Shown: positions 19,771 through 30,510 of the stretch, piece after piece
How positions within the stretch are numbered: the first letter of the stretch is position 1
Layout of the letters: every line of letters begins with the position of its first letter
Assembly (NCBI GenBank): GCA_012799185.1
Contig: JAAZLS010000011.1
Coordinates: 1 to 38,587, forward strand
Length of the DNA: 38,587 nt
From: Bacillota bacterium
GTDB lineage: Bacteria; Bacillota; Dethiobacteria; DTU022
Direction of reading: 5' to 3'
The notes under the pieces: model-generated
The model's database searches: none
What the model saw: the letters and a program-made list of their open reading frames with translations, nothing else
What the model was told of the DNA's origin: nothing
Position numbers and translations under genes: made by a program

Positions 19771-19810
19771 ACAAAAAATCTATATTTTGACTAAACCTCA
19801 TTTTCTCCAG

Positions 19811-19992
19811 GTGTGGTAGAGGTGCGATTTCCAAAAGTAATCGCCGGAAGGAGCGGGAATCCGATGACCGGCGGAGAAAGGGGAGATCGCCGAAGCTTTC
19901 GGGGGGCCCCGGGCCCGGAGGTTGGGACGCCAGTGAACAACTGGCGGACTGTCACCGGGAACGACCCGTGTCCCGGCGGAGCGCTACCCCAC
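19811..19992 (+). promoter_or_regulatory. Lysine riboswitch (L box)
   Basis: Lysine-binding aptamer. The P1 helix is formed by GTGTGGTAG (19811-19819) and CTACCCCAC (19984-19992), nine pairs with one G-U. The conserved core is present: AGAGGTGCG at the start, the AGTA stretch, GGCGGAGAAAGGGGAG followed by TCGCCGAAGC, and a distal GGACTGTCACCGGG element. An intrinsic terminator and lysA lie directly downstream. Known behaviour of the class: lysine binding favours the terminator, so lysine lowers expression of lysA-dapF-dapL-asd. Confidence 0.93.
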
Positions 19993-20023
19993 GACTAATG
20001 GGGGTTATCCGGCACGGGATGAC

Positions 20024-24639: not shown

Positions 24640-24668
24640 AACTTAAAATTAACTAAGATTGTAAACTT

Positions 24669-24964
24669 TAACGAGCGGGAAAAGTAACCGCCGGGGGCGG
24701 GTTCTAGAGAGCCGGGGGCAGGTGTAACCCGGTACCCTAAGCGGCGGCGAATACACCCGGGAGAAGCACGATCGAATTCTTGGGGATAGTAGATCGTGAC
24801 GGTTACTCCCCCGTTACCGGGAGCGGCACTAGGGCATTAACGGATACCGGGTTTACCTACGGTTTCGGGTGGCCCTGCTGCTTGATCAAGGGGAGCCGGT
24901 ATAGGCTCAATTAGGGTGGTACCGCGGAAATTTACACCGTCCCTGCTGGGGGCGGTGTTTTCTA
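24669..24964 (+). promoter_or_regulatory. T-box leader, tyrosine specifier (UAC)
   Basis: tRNA-sensing antitermination leader. The T-box core AGGGTGGTACCGCG is exact at 24913-24926. In Stem I the 5' strand AAAAGTAA faces GAATACACC; the loop is flanked by CGGG (24676-24679) with CCCG (24756-24759) below and CCGCCG (24688-24693) with CGGCGG (24742-24747) above. The specifier is therefore TAC at 24752-24754, a Tyr codon. AGAGAG...GGTGTAA, typical of the distal Stem I elements, is also present, and CACGATC (24767-24773) with GATCGTG (24792-24798) forms the next stem. The downstream genes make tyrosine, in agreement with the specifier. Confidence 0.92.
24934..24964 (+). terminator. T-box-controlled intrinsic terminator before aroF
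   Basis: ACACCGTCCC, loop TGCT, GGGGGCGGTGT, then TTTTCT. It lies directly after the T-box sequence, which forms the competing antiterminator when uncharged tRNA-Tyr binds. Confidence 0.88.
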
Positions 24965-25018: not shown

Positions 25019-26032
25019 ATGATCGTTGTAATCAAGCCGGAGGTTGATGAAGAAGCTATTTTACAGATCGTGCAGAAACTTAAACGGATGGGTTATGGGA
25101 TCCATCGTTCTACCGGTGAAAAGCGCACCGTGTTGGGGGCCATCGGCCGGCGGCGGGAGGATGCAGCCCAGACGCTGGAGGCTATCCCGGAGGTTGAAAA
25201 GGTGGTCTATGTAACCCGGCCGTTTAAACTGGTAGGGAGGGAGTTTCAACCCCGGGATACGGAGATTAGGATTGGCAATAGCAGCGTAGGTGGAAAAGAG
25301 ATCGCTGTAATAGCCGGCCCCTGTGCGGTTGAAAGCGAACAGCAGCTGCTGGATTCAGCCCGGGCGGTTAAGAGTGCCGGTGCCCGGTTCCTGAGGGGGG
25401 GCGCTTTCAAACCCCGGACCTCCCCCTATAGTTTCCAGGGGCTGGAACAGGAGGGCCTGGGCTTGCTTAGCCGGGTGGGCCGGGAAACGGGGCTGCTGGT
25501 GGTAACCGAGGTGATGGACCAGTTTACAGTAAAACAGGTGGCGGAGTGTGCAGATATCCTACAGGTAGGCACCCGTAACATGCAAAACTTTTACCTGCTG
25601 AGGGAGCTGGGCAAAATTCGCAAACCGGTTTTGCTAAAAAGGGGGATGTCGGCTACGGTGGAGGAGTGGCTAATGGCGGCCGAGTATATTATGAGCGGTG
25701 GGAATTACCAGGTGATTTTATGTGAACGGGGGATCCGTACTTTTGAACCCTATACCCGAAACACCCTGGATTTAAGTGCGGTACCGCTTGTAAAAGAGCT
25801 GAGCCATTTGCCGGTAATCGTAGATCCCAGCCACGGCACCGGTAAGAAGAGCCTGATCCCGGCCATGTGCAAGGCGGCTATAGCCGCCGGGGCTGATGGG
25901 TTAATGGTAGAGGTTCATCCCTCCCCGGGGGAGGCCCTATCCGACGGTCCACAATCCCTAAACCGAGAGGAGTTTTTACAACTAATGGCAGATTTAAAAG
26001 GGGTGGCCCAGATTGTTGGAAGAACAATCTAA
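25019..26032 (+). CDS. aroF: 3-deoxy-7-phosphoheptulonate (DAHP) synthase
   Basis: First step of aromatic amino acid synthesis, phosphoenolpyruvate plus erythrose 4-phosphate to DAHP. It has 337 residues of the AroA-I-beta type: an N-terminal ferredoxin-like regulatory domain (about 1-70, MIVVIKPEVDEEAILQIVQKL) joined to the barrel with IAGPCAVES, RGGAFKPRTSPYSFQG, GTRNMQNF, LLKRGMSAT and the metal-site region DPSHGTGK. The regulatory domain usually confers feedback inhibition by Tyr or Phe. ATG follows AGGGGG about 9 bases upstream. It is the first gene behind the Tyr T-box and overlaps tyrA by 20 bases. Confidence 0.95.
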   Translation: MIVVIKPEVDEEAILQIVQKLKRMGYGIHRSTGEKRTVLGAIGRRREDAAQTLEAIPEVEKVVYVTRPFKLVGREFQPRDTEIRIGNSSVGGKEIAVIAGPCAVESEQQLLDSARAVKSAGARFLRGGAFKPRTSPYSFQGLEQEGLGLLSRVGRETGLLVVTEVMDQFTVKQVAECADILQVGTRNMQNFYLLRELGKIRKPVLLKRGMSATVEEWLMAAEYIMSGGNYQVILCERGIRTFEPYTRNTLDLSAVPLVKELSHLPVIVDPSHGTGKKSLIPAMCKAAIAAGADGLMVEVHPSPGEALSDGPQSLNREEFLQLMADLKGVAQIVGRTI

Positions 26033-27198: not shown

Positions 27199-27227
27199 TT
27201 TACAAAATTTTCGCTTTGTGTTAACAT
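27199..27227 (+). promoter_or_regulatory. Sigma-A promoter for the glycine betaine transporter leader
   Basis: TTTACA (5 of 6), 17 bases, TAACAT (4 of 6), in an AT-rich stretch. It implies a transcript that begins about 310 bases before the first coding codon. Confidence 0.55.
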
Positions 27228-27233
27228 CATGAC

Positions 27234-27544
27234 TATCGTTTTCGCTGTTGTTTGAAAACTAATATTTAGAGCAATGGTGAACTAGCTGGCGGTAGTAAGC
27301 CCGGCTTCGAGCCTTTATACGTCATCAACTGGTGGATAAAGGTAAGAACCGAAAAAATGGGTAGAAACCACAAGTGAAAAACCATGCTGGAGAACTGGGG
27401 CTTTTTCTGGTTCTAAAAGGGCCAGATATAGACTACAACACAACTACGGTTGTGGTTTAGGGTGAGTCATTGCGGCGAAACCCAAGCACTCTAACCTCTG
27501 CTCAGAGGTTAGAGTGCTTATTTTTTTGGGAGGGGAATGAGACG
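27234..27544 (+). ncRNA. Unassigned structured leader RNA of the glycine betaine transporter operon
   Basis: About 310 nt between promoter and coding start. Helices read by eye: AGCTGG (27284-27289) with CCGGCT (27301-27306); CCTTTAT (27312-27318) with ATAAAGG (27336-27342), which encloses CATC-AACT-GGTG; AGAACCGAAAAA (27345-27356) with TTTTTCTGGTTCT (27402-27414), 12 pairs with one bulged U; and CACAAC-TACG-GTTGTG (27439-27454). GGTTTAGGGTG (27454-27464) can pair with CACTCTAACC (27487-27496), the 5' arm of the following terminator, giving a possible antiterminator. I do not see the hallmark sequences of ydaO (c-di-AMP), glycine, T-box, SAM, lysine or cobalamin RNAs. Structure and a terminator switch are supported; the ligand is unknown. 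Confidence 0.65.
27484..27528 (+). terminator. Intrinsic terminator (attenuator) before the opu-type operon
   Basis: AAGCACTCTAACCTCT, loop GCTC, AGAGGTTAGAGTGCTT: a perfect 16-bp stem followed by ATTTTTTT. It lies between promoter and start codon, so unless bypassed it would prevent expression of the transporter. Confidence 0.9.
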
Positions 27545-28765
27545 GTGCCTAAAATTAAAATAAAGAACCTTTATAAGATCTTTGGCCCCTACCCCCAAAG
27601 GTCTCTAAAAAAGTTGGCATCGGGGATATCTAAGGAAAAACTGCTTCAGGAAACAGGCAACACAGTTGGAGTTCATAATGTTTCTTTTTCCGTGGAACAG
27701 GCCGAGATTTTTGTTGTGATGGGTCTTTCGGGCAGCGGTAAGTCAACACTGGTTCGCTGTATCAATCGCATTATTGAGCCGACTGCAGGCGAGATCTATA
27801 TTGACGATATAAATATTACCCAGTTGCCGATGAAAGAGCTGCGTTTTTTCAGGCAGAAGAAGCTGGCCATGGTCTTCCAGCATTTTGCCCTCCTTCCTCA
27901 CCGGACCATTTTGCAGAATGTAGCCTACGGCCTGGAGATACAGGGGATGGAAAAAAACGCGCGTGAAGAGAAGGCTCGGGCGGTACTGGAGACGGTCGGT
28001 TTAAAGGACTGGTCGGCCGCCTATCCCGAACAGTTAAGCGGGGGTATGCAGCAGCGGGTCGGCCTGGCCCGGGCACTGGCGGTTGACCCGGATATTCTGC
28101 TAATGGATGAACCCTTCAGCGCCCTCGACCCCCTGATCCGTCGGGAGATGCAGGAGGAGCTAATGGAGCTACAGGAGAGGGTACGAAAAACGATAATTTT
28201 TATAACCCATGACCTGGATGAAGCGTTAAAGTTGGGCGATCGGATTGCAATTATGAAAGATGGGTTGATTGATCAGATCGGGACCCCGGAGGAGATCCTT
28301 ACTAACCCGGCGACCGAGTACGTGGCCAATTTTGTAACCGATGTGGACCGTTCTAAGATTTTAAAAGCCGAGAATATCATGATCCGTCCAACGGCCCATG
28401 TTTCGGCCAATGATGGCCCCCGAGTAGCGCTACGCAAGATGAAAAAAGAGGCTTTATCAAGCATCTTTGTTATCGAGGGTGATCGCCGCCTGGCCGGTAT
28501 TGTTACTGTTGATCGGGCGGTGGAGGCGGTAAAAAACAGGGTAATCGATCTCCGGCAGATTGTAGAGACTGATATCCCGGTAACGGCCCCGGGTACGCCT
28601 ATCCAGGATTTACTTCCGGTGGCGGCTACGGCCCGGGTACCGATCGCGGTAATCGATGAAAAAAAGAGATTGCTGGGCATAATCGTACGTGTCTCCGTCC
28701 TTGCCGGATTAGTTGGAGGGGGGGAAAACAATAATGTGGAAAATCTTACTGGTAAATTGGACTGA
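27545..28765 (+). CDS. opuAA: Glycine betaine/proline-type ABC transporter ATPase with CBS domains
   Basis: ATP-binding subunit of an osmoprotectant importer (OpuA/ProU family). The start is GTG 27545 with GGGAGGGG 9 bases upstream; the track's start at 27470 would translate through the terminator hairpin. It has 406 residues. KIKIKNLYKIFG opens the family pattern; Walker A is GLSGSGKST, the signature LSGGMQQR, Walker B ILLMDEPFSALDPLIR and the switch His is in FITHDLDEA. Two CBS domains (about residues 275-395) usually sense ionic strength or a nucleotide, gating transport under osmotic stress. The permease start lies 32 bases inside this gene. Confidence 0.93.
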   Translation: MPKIKIKNLYKIFGPYPQRSLKKLASGISKEKLLQETGNTVGVHNVSFSVEQAEIFVVMGLSGSGKSTLVRCINRIIEPTAGEIYIDDINITQLPMKELRFFRQKKLAMVFQHFALLPHRTILQNVAYGLEIQGMEKNAREEKARAVLETVGLKDWSAAYPEQLSGGMQQRVGLARALAVDPDILLMDEPFSALDPLIRREMQEELMELQERVRKTIIFITHDLDEALKLGDRIAIMKDGLIDQIGTPEEILTNPATEYVANFVTDVDRSKILKAENIMIRPTAHVSANDGPRVALRKMKKEALSSIFVIEGDRRLAGIVTVDRAVEAVKNRVIDLRQIVETDIPVTAPGTPIQDLLPVAATARVPIAVIDEKKRLLGIIVRVSVLAGLVGGGENNNVENLTGKLD

Positions 28766-29615
28766 AGCCCTGGCAATGCGGCGGTTGCCCCTGCGGGAAT
28801 GGGCCGATTATGCCGTGCTCTTTCTCCGCAGCAATCATCGAGATCTATTTCGAGCGATTAGCGGTGTCATTGAAACGATCGTCCTTTCATTCGGAGATTT
28901 TCTATCCCATATTCCCGTCACCCTTTTTATTATTATCCTGGTGCTTATCGCCTGGAGATTGGCCGGGCGGGGGATGGCTATCTTTACCGTGGTCGGTATG
29001 CTTCTGCTGGTTAACTTGAATTTATGGGATGATACCCTGATGACCCTGGCACTGGTTCTTACCTCTACCTTTATTTCGCTTATTATCGGTATCCCACTGG
29101 GTATTTTAGCTTCACGCTGGGATCTGGTGGAAAAAATACTGCGCCCGCTCCTGGATTTTATGCAGACCATGCCGATCTTTGTCTACCTGTTACCGGCGGT
29201 GATGCTCTTTAGTATCGGCGTGGTGCCGGCAGTCCTGGCGACCGTGGTCTTTTCCATGCCCCCGGCAATCCGGTTAACCAACCTGGGGATTCGCCAGGTC
29301 CCGGCGGAGATGATCGAGGCGGCAACCTCCTTTGGTTCCACCTCTTTTCAGATGCTCACCAAGGTGCAACTTCCACTGGCCCTACCCTCAATTATGGCCG
29401 GGGTTAACCAGTGTATCATGTTGGCCCTCTCCATGGTAGTGATTGCCGCCATGATCGGTGCTGAGGGGCTGGGAAGCATAGTATACAGGGGCGTGACGCG
29501 GTTACAAATTGGTTCCGGTTTCGAAGGGGGTTTGGCGGTAGTTATTATTGCGATTATCTTAGATCGGGTTACCCAATCCTTGGGGAGAAAGTCACCCCAA
29601 AAAGATAGGGGCTAA
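28734..29615 (+). CDS. opuAB: Glycine betaine/proline-type ABC transporter permease
   Basis: Membrane subunit, 293 residues from ATG 28734, which has GGAGGGGGGG 9 bases upstream; the track's 28713 start would contain that site. Six or so hydrophobic spans are visible, with the binding-protein-dependent permease region LTLALVLTSTFISLIIGIPLGILASR and the coupling-helix (EAA) loop RQVPAEMIEAATSFGSTSFQMLTKVQLPLALPSIMAG contacting the ATPase. Typical of ProW/OpuAB. It overlaps opuAA, so it is co-translated. Confidence 0.93.
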   Translation: MWKILLVNWTEALAMRRLPLREWADYAVLFLRSNHRDLFRAISGVIETIVLSFGDFLSHIPVTLFIIILVLIAWRLAGRGMAIFTVVGMLLLVNLNLWDDTLMTLALVLTSTFISLIIGIPLGILASRWDLVEKILRPLLDFMQTMPIFVYLLPAVMLFSIGVVPAVLATVVFSMPPAIRLTNLGIRQVPAEMIEAATSFGSTSFQMLTKVQLPLALPSIMAGVNQCIMLALSMVVIAAMIGAEGLGSIVYRGVTRLQIGSGFEGGLAVVIIAIILDRVTQSLGRKSPQKDRG

Positions 29616-29649: not shown

Positions 29650-30510
29650 ATGCGGAGAAAAATTATAACTGGTCTTCTGGCATTAGTAATGATGGCGGGC
29701 TTAATGTTTACCGGATGTGCCGGAGATGGGGCGCCGGCCGGTGAGACAATCAAACTTGGGTATGTGCAGTGGGCCTGTGCAGAGGCCTCAACCCACCTTG
29801 CCCAGGCGGTCATTATGGATGAGTTGGGTTATGAGGTTAAGGTAACCTCTATCGAAGCCGGTGCGCTCTATGATGGCCTGGCTGACGGGGCTCTCGATGC
29901 CCAGACTACAGCCTGGCTGCCGGTAACCCATGCCGATTACATGGAGCAATATGGCGATCAGATCGATGATTATGGTCAGCTCTACAACAATGCCCGTATC
30001 GGCCTGGTAGTTCCTACGTATGTGGATATTGATTCCATCGAGGAACTAAATGAACACGTGGATCAGTTTGGAGGTCGTATTGTCGGGATCGACGGCGGCG
30101 CCGGGATTATGATTGCTACCGAGCAGGCGATTGAAGATTACCCGCTGGAACTGGAATTGGTTGAGAGTAGCGATATGGCCATGACCGCCGCCTTAGATGA
30201 TGCTTACTTGGAAGGGGAATGGATCGTCGTCACCGGTTGGACACCCCACTGGAAATTTGCCAGCTTTGATTTAAAGTTCCTGGAAGATCCCAAGGGTGTA
30301 TACGGTGGGGCGGAAGATATTCATGTGATGGCCCGCCAGGGGTTGGAGGAGGATGCCCCCGATGTGGCTAATTTCCTCAAGAACTACTACCTGGAAGATT
30401 ACCAGCTGGGAGAAATAATTGGCGCGATTGCCGATGGAGCCGAGCCCCTAGAGGCAGCCCGGGAATGGATCGCTGAGAATGAAGATGTAGTTGAAGGTTG
30501 GTTACAGTAG
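29650..30510 (+). CDS. opuAC: Glycine betaine-binding lipoprotein
   Basis: Substrate-binding lipoprotein of the importer, 286 residues. The signal is MRRKIITGLLALVMMAGLMFTGC with lipobox FTGC (Cys about 23). The mature part begins with ETIKLGYVQWACAEASTHLAQAVIMDELGYEV, as in ProX/OpuAC-type proteins, and includes Trp residues (VQWACA, TTAWLP, VVTGWTPHW) suited to an aromatic cage for a quaternary ammonium group. The mature protein is rich in Asp/Glu. Exact ligand choice (glycine betaine, proline betaine, carnitine) cannot be told. ATG follows CAGGGGG about 9 bases upstream; a strong terminator follows the gene. Confidence 0.92.
   Translation: MRRKIITGLLALVMMAGLMFTGCAGDGAPAGETIKLGYVQWACAEASTHLAQAVIMDELGYEVKVTSIEAGALYDGLADGALDAQTTAWLPVTHADYMEQYGDQIDDYGQLYNNARIGLVVPTYVDIDSIEELNEHVDQFGGRIVGIDGGAGIMIATEQAIEDYPLELELVESSDMAMTAALDDAYLEGEWIVVTGWTPHWKFASFDLKFLEDPKGVYGGAEDIHVMARQGLEEDAPDVANFLKNYYLEDYQLGEIIGAIADGAEPLEAAREWIAENEDVVEGWLQ

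Follow-up and report, generated by a model that had tools for sequence, protein, structure and literature searches.

Upstream of an operon for a betaine-type ATP-binding cassette (ABC) transporter, in a 38,587-nucleotide (nt) stretch of DNA from a Bacillota bacterium (contig JAAZLS010000011.1, referred to here as the window), lies a noncoding leader of about 310 bases that ends at a GTG start codon at position 27545. It contains a structured RNA of about 225 nt (27275–27499), with two domains, eleven helices and many conserved unpaired bases, for which 46 members from 40 genomes and 17 families have been aligned. The comparative evidence indicates that it is probably a leader of the riboswitch type that attenuates transcription of compatible-solute genes, and we regard it as a strong riboswitch candidate and a new class within a known kind, the riboswitch-type attenuators. 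This candidate is large and complex, and its regulon is coherent and extends across at least 17 bacterial families. An initial annotation of this DNA had described a candidate promoter, a noncoding leader of about 310 nt and a perfect 16 bp terminator followed by a T-run, and all three are present.

Structure of the leader and its terminator

The features of the leader, in window coordinates, are as follows.

27199–27227, + strand: promoter-like sequence TTTACA-17 nt-TAACAT, scoring 9/12
27275–27384, + strand: domain A (P1a, P1b, P1c, P2), with covariation
27275–27278/27381–27384, + strand: helix P1a
27285–27292/27368–27375, + strand: helix P1b
27299–27304/27349–27362, + strand: helix P1c, discontinuous
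27311–27324/27330–27343, + strand: helix P2
27389–27499, + strand: domain B, in which P0 closes a junction of P3, P4 and P5
27389–27403, + strand: P0 5′ strand GGAGAACTGGGGCTT, putative antiterminator and closing helix of domain B; co-evolves with 27484–27499 (column 305/487, E = 0.001)
27404–27428, + strand: hairpin P3 (27404–27413/27419–27428), 6/10 pairs significant
27429–27459, + strand: hairpin P4 (27429–27438/27450–27459), 3/10 pairs significant
27460–27483, + strand: hairpin P5 (27460–27463/27480–27483, 27466–27468/27474–27476) with a conserved GA/GAA internal loop, 3/7 pairs significant
27484–27499, + strand: strand AAGCACTCTAACCTCT, common to P0 (3′ strand) and the terminator (5′ arm)
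27484–27519, + strand: intrinsic terminator, perfect 16 bp followed by ATTTTTTT, built on the P0 3′ strand

Comparison of the members indicates that the leader structure is real, far beyond chance. The window leader folds with a stability of z = −5.7 relative to 100 dinucleotide shuffles. Its architecture goes beyond the four helices in series of the initial annotation and consists of two domains with a multi-helix junction. In the alignment of all members (A5), 92.2% of cells at model pairs are paired, compared with 72.5% when the 3′ letters are shuffled and 32–47% when the partners are slid by 1–3 columns, and 59 of the 70 model pairs show change on both sides. Because kinship among the sequences inflates raw pair counts of this kind, a phylogeny-aware test was run (a G-test with average-product correction in our own R-scape-like script, with a null in which the substitutions inferred on the tree are replayed at randomly chosen columns). 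When all 23,220 column pairs of the model-fitted alignment are considered, 9 are significant at E < 0.05, all of them within model helices, and a sequence-only MAFFT alignment gives four significant pairs corresponding to the same helices. The test restricted to the 70 model pairs finds 29 significant, spread over 10 of 13 sub-helices, and so supplies the covariation among relatives' leaders that the initial annotation had named as a check. The sub-helices without significant pairs are P0b and P0c, which are near-invariant or vary mostly by wobble, and one two-pair stretch. Domain A has a conserved internal loop, GAAGUA/GAAAAA, the window version of which is GAACUA.

The closing helix of domain B is formed by pairing of GGAG-AACU-GGG-GCUU (27389–27403) with AAGC-A-CUC-UAAC-CUCU (27484–27499), and because its 3′ strand is also the terminator 5′ arm, folding of domain B and termination are mutually exclusive. 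The partners have co-evolved, with a duplex energy of −10.05 kcal/mol for each member's own P0 strands against −9.14 kcal/mol when strands are exchanged among members (none of 5000 permutations did as well), and the compensatory combinations include GCUU/AGGC, GUUU/AAAC, GUCU/AGAC, ACUU/AAGU and GUUC/GGAC, as well as AUAG/CUAU replacing GGAG/CUCU. A hairpin with a T-run was found by script on the P0 3′ strand in 45 of the 46 members, with a mean of 84% of the strand paired in the terminator; in the one exception, L076, inspection by eye shows a hairpin of this kind whose T-run is shorter. In predicted folds, a window transcript ending after the terminator 5′ arm forms P0b/P0c, and a longer transcript forms the terminator. 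This exclusivity, together with the co-evolution of P0, bears out the regulated-attenuator layout proposed at the outset, with a different antiterminator. The strand originally put forward as a mimic of the terminator 3′ arm, GGTTTAGGGTG, is present at 27454–27464, but it belongs to P4/P5, and its pairing with the terminator 5′ arm is no better between own partners (−7.36 kcal/mol) than between swapped ones (−7.31 kcal/mol; 1793 of 5000 permutations as good).

Promoters scoring at least 10/12 are located just upstream of the RNA in 35 of the 46 members, where 3.0 would be expected, and transcription therefore begins before the RNA and not 3′ of the terminator, a start that would have counted against a regulated leader. 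The family combines a conserved fold containing a helix exclusive of an intrinsic terminator with a position in the 5′ leaders of functionally related genes, behind a promoter, and from this we infer a riboswitch. With domain B folded, P0 would hold the terminator 5′ arm, no terminator would form and the operon would be transcribed; with domain B unfolded, the terminator would win. An osmotic-stress signal, presumably sensed directly by the RNA, may stabilize the folded form, which would make this an ON switch, the simpler reading of the layout.

A possible pseudoknot between GCCC (27299–27302) and GGGC (27397–27400) seems plausible in close relatives, but by eye it is not kept in distant members, and it was rejected. 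Six members (L044, L045, L055, L058, L060 and L067) have a variant P0 internal loop, with AAAA/GAAA on the 5′ side and AGT on the 3′ side (GTT in L067) instead of the usual AACT and AAC. All six sit ahead of amino-acid-type ABC transporters, and the variant could reflect altered ligand specificity.

Distribution and downstream genes

A DNA search of 100 relatives revealed the same leader in 10, always preceding the same type of ATPase gene. A covariance model of 224 positions built from 11 aligned sequences (R1) was then run at three levels: it matched 12 of 71 genomes in the order, 13 of 98 in the class and, in the phylum, 29 of the 399 that were sampled. Each figure still contains one match that inspection showed to be due to chance and that was set aside (the weak match L043 for the order and class, and L075 for the phylum). 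A rebuilt model (R2) brought in further members; in an additional small class it was positive in seven of ten genomes, with two copies in four of these. Dethiobacter alkaliphilus is among the genomes carrying the RNA. Eight genomes that had been picked up via other ABC-transporter loci, Ureibacillus and Pseudomonas among them, gave no model match, and no member was found in plasmids or in viral contigs, the latter scanned with one exact pattern only. One retained member, L081 (L109:42–250), is shortened and partly degenerate; it has its own promoter and terminator upstream of a hypoxanthine phosphoribosyltransferase gene and is possibly a decaying or repurposed copy.

The regulated genes in the window encode the three components of one transporter, as follows.

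27545–28765, + strand: ATPase with CBS domain of a betaine-type ABC transporter (ProV/OpuA type), the first regulated gene (TIGR01186 proV, 453 bits, above cut-off; PF00005, PF00571)
28713–29615, + strand: permease of the same transporter (PF00528; nearest NCBIfam models are choline/betaine permeases, below cut-off)
29650–30510, + strand: OpuAC-type substrate-binding protein of the same transporter (PF04069, 225.8 bits)

Across the 46 members, with target families assigned on representatives, the first downstream gene encodes a betaine-type ABC ATPase in 13, the lysine 2,3-aminomutase AblA in 11, an amino-acid-type ABC binding protein in 17, a BCCT transporter in three, EhuB in one (TIGR02995, above cut-off) and hypoxanthine phosphoribosyltransferase in one (the degenerate member). 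The AblB acetyltransferase gene (TIGR03827) lies behind ablA in the operon tested, and a size-matched open reading frame (ORF) occupies this position in the others read. By family, 28 of the 46 targets are osmolyte genes, in agreement with the osmotic-stress link suggested originally. The nearest NCBIfam models to the 17 amino-acid-type systems fall below cut-off, and among solved structures the closest are those of amino-acid binders; the gene associations predict that this group of transporters carries osmolytes.

Five of the 17 amino-acid-type binding proteins are circularly permuted (the first genes of L103, L105, L112, L113 and L114, downstream of L070, L072 and L084–L086). Residues 28–145 of the L112 protein match 161–278 of an ordinary relative (L096 gene 1), and residues 163–278 match 46–161. 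Four of these five loci are in genomes where the RNA occurs once more, ahead of ablA.

Relationship to known RNAs

Scanning of the leader with the Rfam 15 covariance models, a check also named at the outset, gave no match at the gathering score and none believable at E values up to 10, consistent with the absence of known-class hallmarks reported initially; there is a weak bglG-cis-reg match (E = 0.05; 23.5 bits, where the cut-off is 80). The scan works on this DNA, because a lysine riboswitch, a T-box and a tRNA were detected elsewhere in the window. No Rfam match coincides with the element in any of about 40 related loci scanned; the element is not matched by the cyclic di-AMP (c-di-AMP) riboswitch model RF00379 in any of the members scanned, nor by that of the Na+-I riboswitch (DUF1646 motif), which is contained in Rfam 15, in the window or related loci. 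No published description of the leader RNA was found in the open-licence PMC literature, a search that does not extend to subscription journals and preprints. As far as these tools show, with the trpB motif compared by text description only, the family is so far uncatalogued, in keeping with the suggestion that it could be an undescribed class.

There are several RNAs with which it shares features. The Na+-I riboswitch is a transcriptional ON switch with mutually exclusive aptamer and terminator, controls osmotic-stress genes including that for lysine-2,3-aminomutase, and on one such aminomutase gene can form a tandem with a riboswitch for c-di-AMP (PMC9337991). The new RNA resembles it in its proposed ON logic, aptamer–terminator exclusivity, osmotic-stress genes and possible tandem arrangement with a c-di-AMP riboswitch, but Na+-I is built of two extended helices (P1/P2) and its targets are mainly ion transporters (PMC9337991), whereas there is no ion transporter among the 46 targets here. 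The ydaO/yuaA riboswitch (RF00379) likewise controls genes for osmotic stress in similar bacteria, although its model does not match the new RNA, it is a separate neighbouring element in one genome (G051), and some carriers of the new RNA lack a c-di-AMP synthase. The proX motif is a riboswitch candidate ahead of a betaine transporter gene, but its 17 members are mainly from Spiribacter and are proposed to act by occlusion of the ribosome-binding site (PMC8632094). The opuB motif is a complex candidate ahead of a compatible-solute-type transporter gene, but it is found mostly in Enterobacteriaceae, is Shine-Dalgarno-based and has a ligand reported to be tied to shikimate/aromatic metabolism (PMC11109978). 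The Shine-Dalgarno occlusion platform of these two motifs is not that of the new family, which ends in an intrinsic terminator on P0. The trpB motif is likewise located in Firmicutes with amino-acid-type ABC transporters and a terminator, although it is described as having at least two hairpins (PMC11109978) and is set apart by this description, not by sequences.

The signal and alternative explanations

The occurrence of one conserved RNA core before genes for different solutes points to a shared osmotic cue and not to one solute, and suggests that a common osmotic signal lies behind the family; the signal is probably not any single one of the solutes (betaine, ectoine, N-acetyl-β-lysine or those of other systems). 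Cells classically respond to osmotic upshift by first taking up K+, and our best single guess, loosely held, is therefore cytoplasmic K+ or ionic strength, with a small metabolite about as likely. A possible, though doubtful, reading is that such an ionic or physical osmotic signal is sensed directly by the RNA, which would then represent a new class of riboswitch coordinating both the uptake and the synthesis of compatible solutes across many Bacillota and, in G051, would belong to a two-input gate together with c-di-AMP.

The second messenger c-di-AMP is an unlikely signal, and the part of the initial annotation that included second messengers fares less well in its case. The DAC domain of c-di-AMP synthases is present in 35 of the 40 carrier genomes, and similar genes are under the control of c-di-AMP riboswitches (PMC9337991), as would be anticipated if the leader were a second, structurally unrelated c-di-AMP riboswitch in which the ligand favours the terminator and turns the osmolyte genes off. 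However, the domain is absent from three genomes of one genus (G110, G193 and G256; 98, 98 and 94% complete), all with the RNA before ablAB; the other two carriers without it are 84% and 76% complete. Moreover, although RF00379 riboswitches are present in 20 of the 40 carrier genomes, in G051 one of them (L003 1244–1383, 78.1 bits) is followed by the new RNA (L003 1504–1720) and then opuA, and two c-di-AMP sensors in this tandem would be redundant. Both observations argue against c-di-AMP as a universal ligand, and we consider a second riboswitch for it highly improbable. The G051 member is one of only two with an own promoter scoring below 9/12, as expected if both tandem elements share one transcript, and the tandem leader is a possible natural two-input gate. 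The coupling of osmotic stress to compatible-solute genes is only partly understood, and the defined antiterminator and the tandem make this new part testable.

A leader of this layout need not be a riboswitch, since such attenuators can be controlled by proteins, and an RNA-binding regulator could stabilize P0 by a LicT/BglG-like logic. The weak bglG-cis-reg match, and the fact that no ligand is known, are in keeping with this, but protein-bound antitermination sites are typically far smaller than about 225 nt and simpler than a two-domain RNA with eleven helices and many conserved unpaired bases, and no regulator gene recurs beside the RNA in the operons examined; protein-mediated control is thus unlikely. 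A promoter, leader and terminator would also fit ordinary attenuation that involves no sensing, whether through a leader peptide or through a terminator that acts constitutively, yet the conserved helices and the co-evolution of P0 with the terminator concern RNA structure, while loop lengths are free to vary among members, and we give this explanation scarcely any credence. It is very unlikely, too, that the family is a divergent or unrecognized version of a motif already published though not registered, for instance trpB, which shares its phylum, transporter type and terminator (PMC11109978); the eleven helices and the ablA, opuA and BCCT targets set the two apart, in a comparison made by description only.

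The reading of the family as an attenuating, riboswitch-type leader for compatible-solute genes, which we favour over these explanations, has several points to contend with. Its support is comparative. The P0b/P0c pairs are too conserved to reach significance individually, and the alignment, being fitted to the model, leans towards its structure; the MAFFT control guards against this and yields fewer significant pairs. As to the regulon, one member precedes a hypoxanthine phosphoribosyltransferase gene, and the osmotic role of the 17 amino-acid-type transporters is a prediction. K+ in particular is a guess, and there are no ion transporters among the targets.

The three near-complete genomes without a DAC domain are small (1.4–1.7 Mb) and apparently lack c-di-AMP, which is unusual among the Bacillota sampled. 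Elsewhere in the window, the lysine riboswitch at 19809–19994 is an ordinary Rfam member, well above cut-off, as is the T-box leader at 24662–24947; the ORF downstream of the T-box, at 25019, appears by eye to be DAHP synthase-like.
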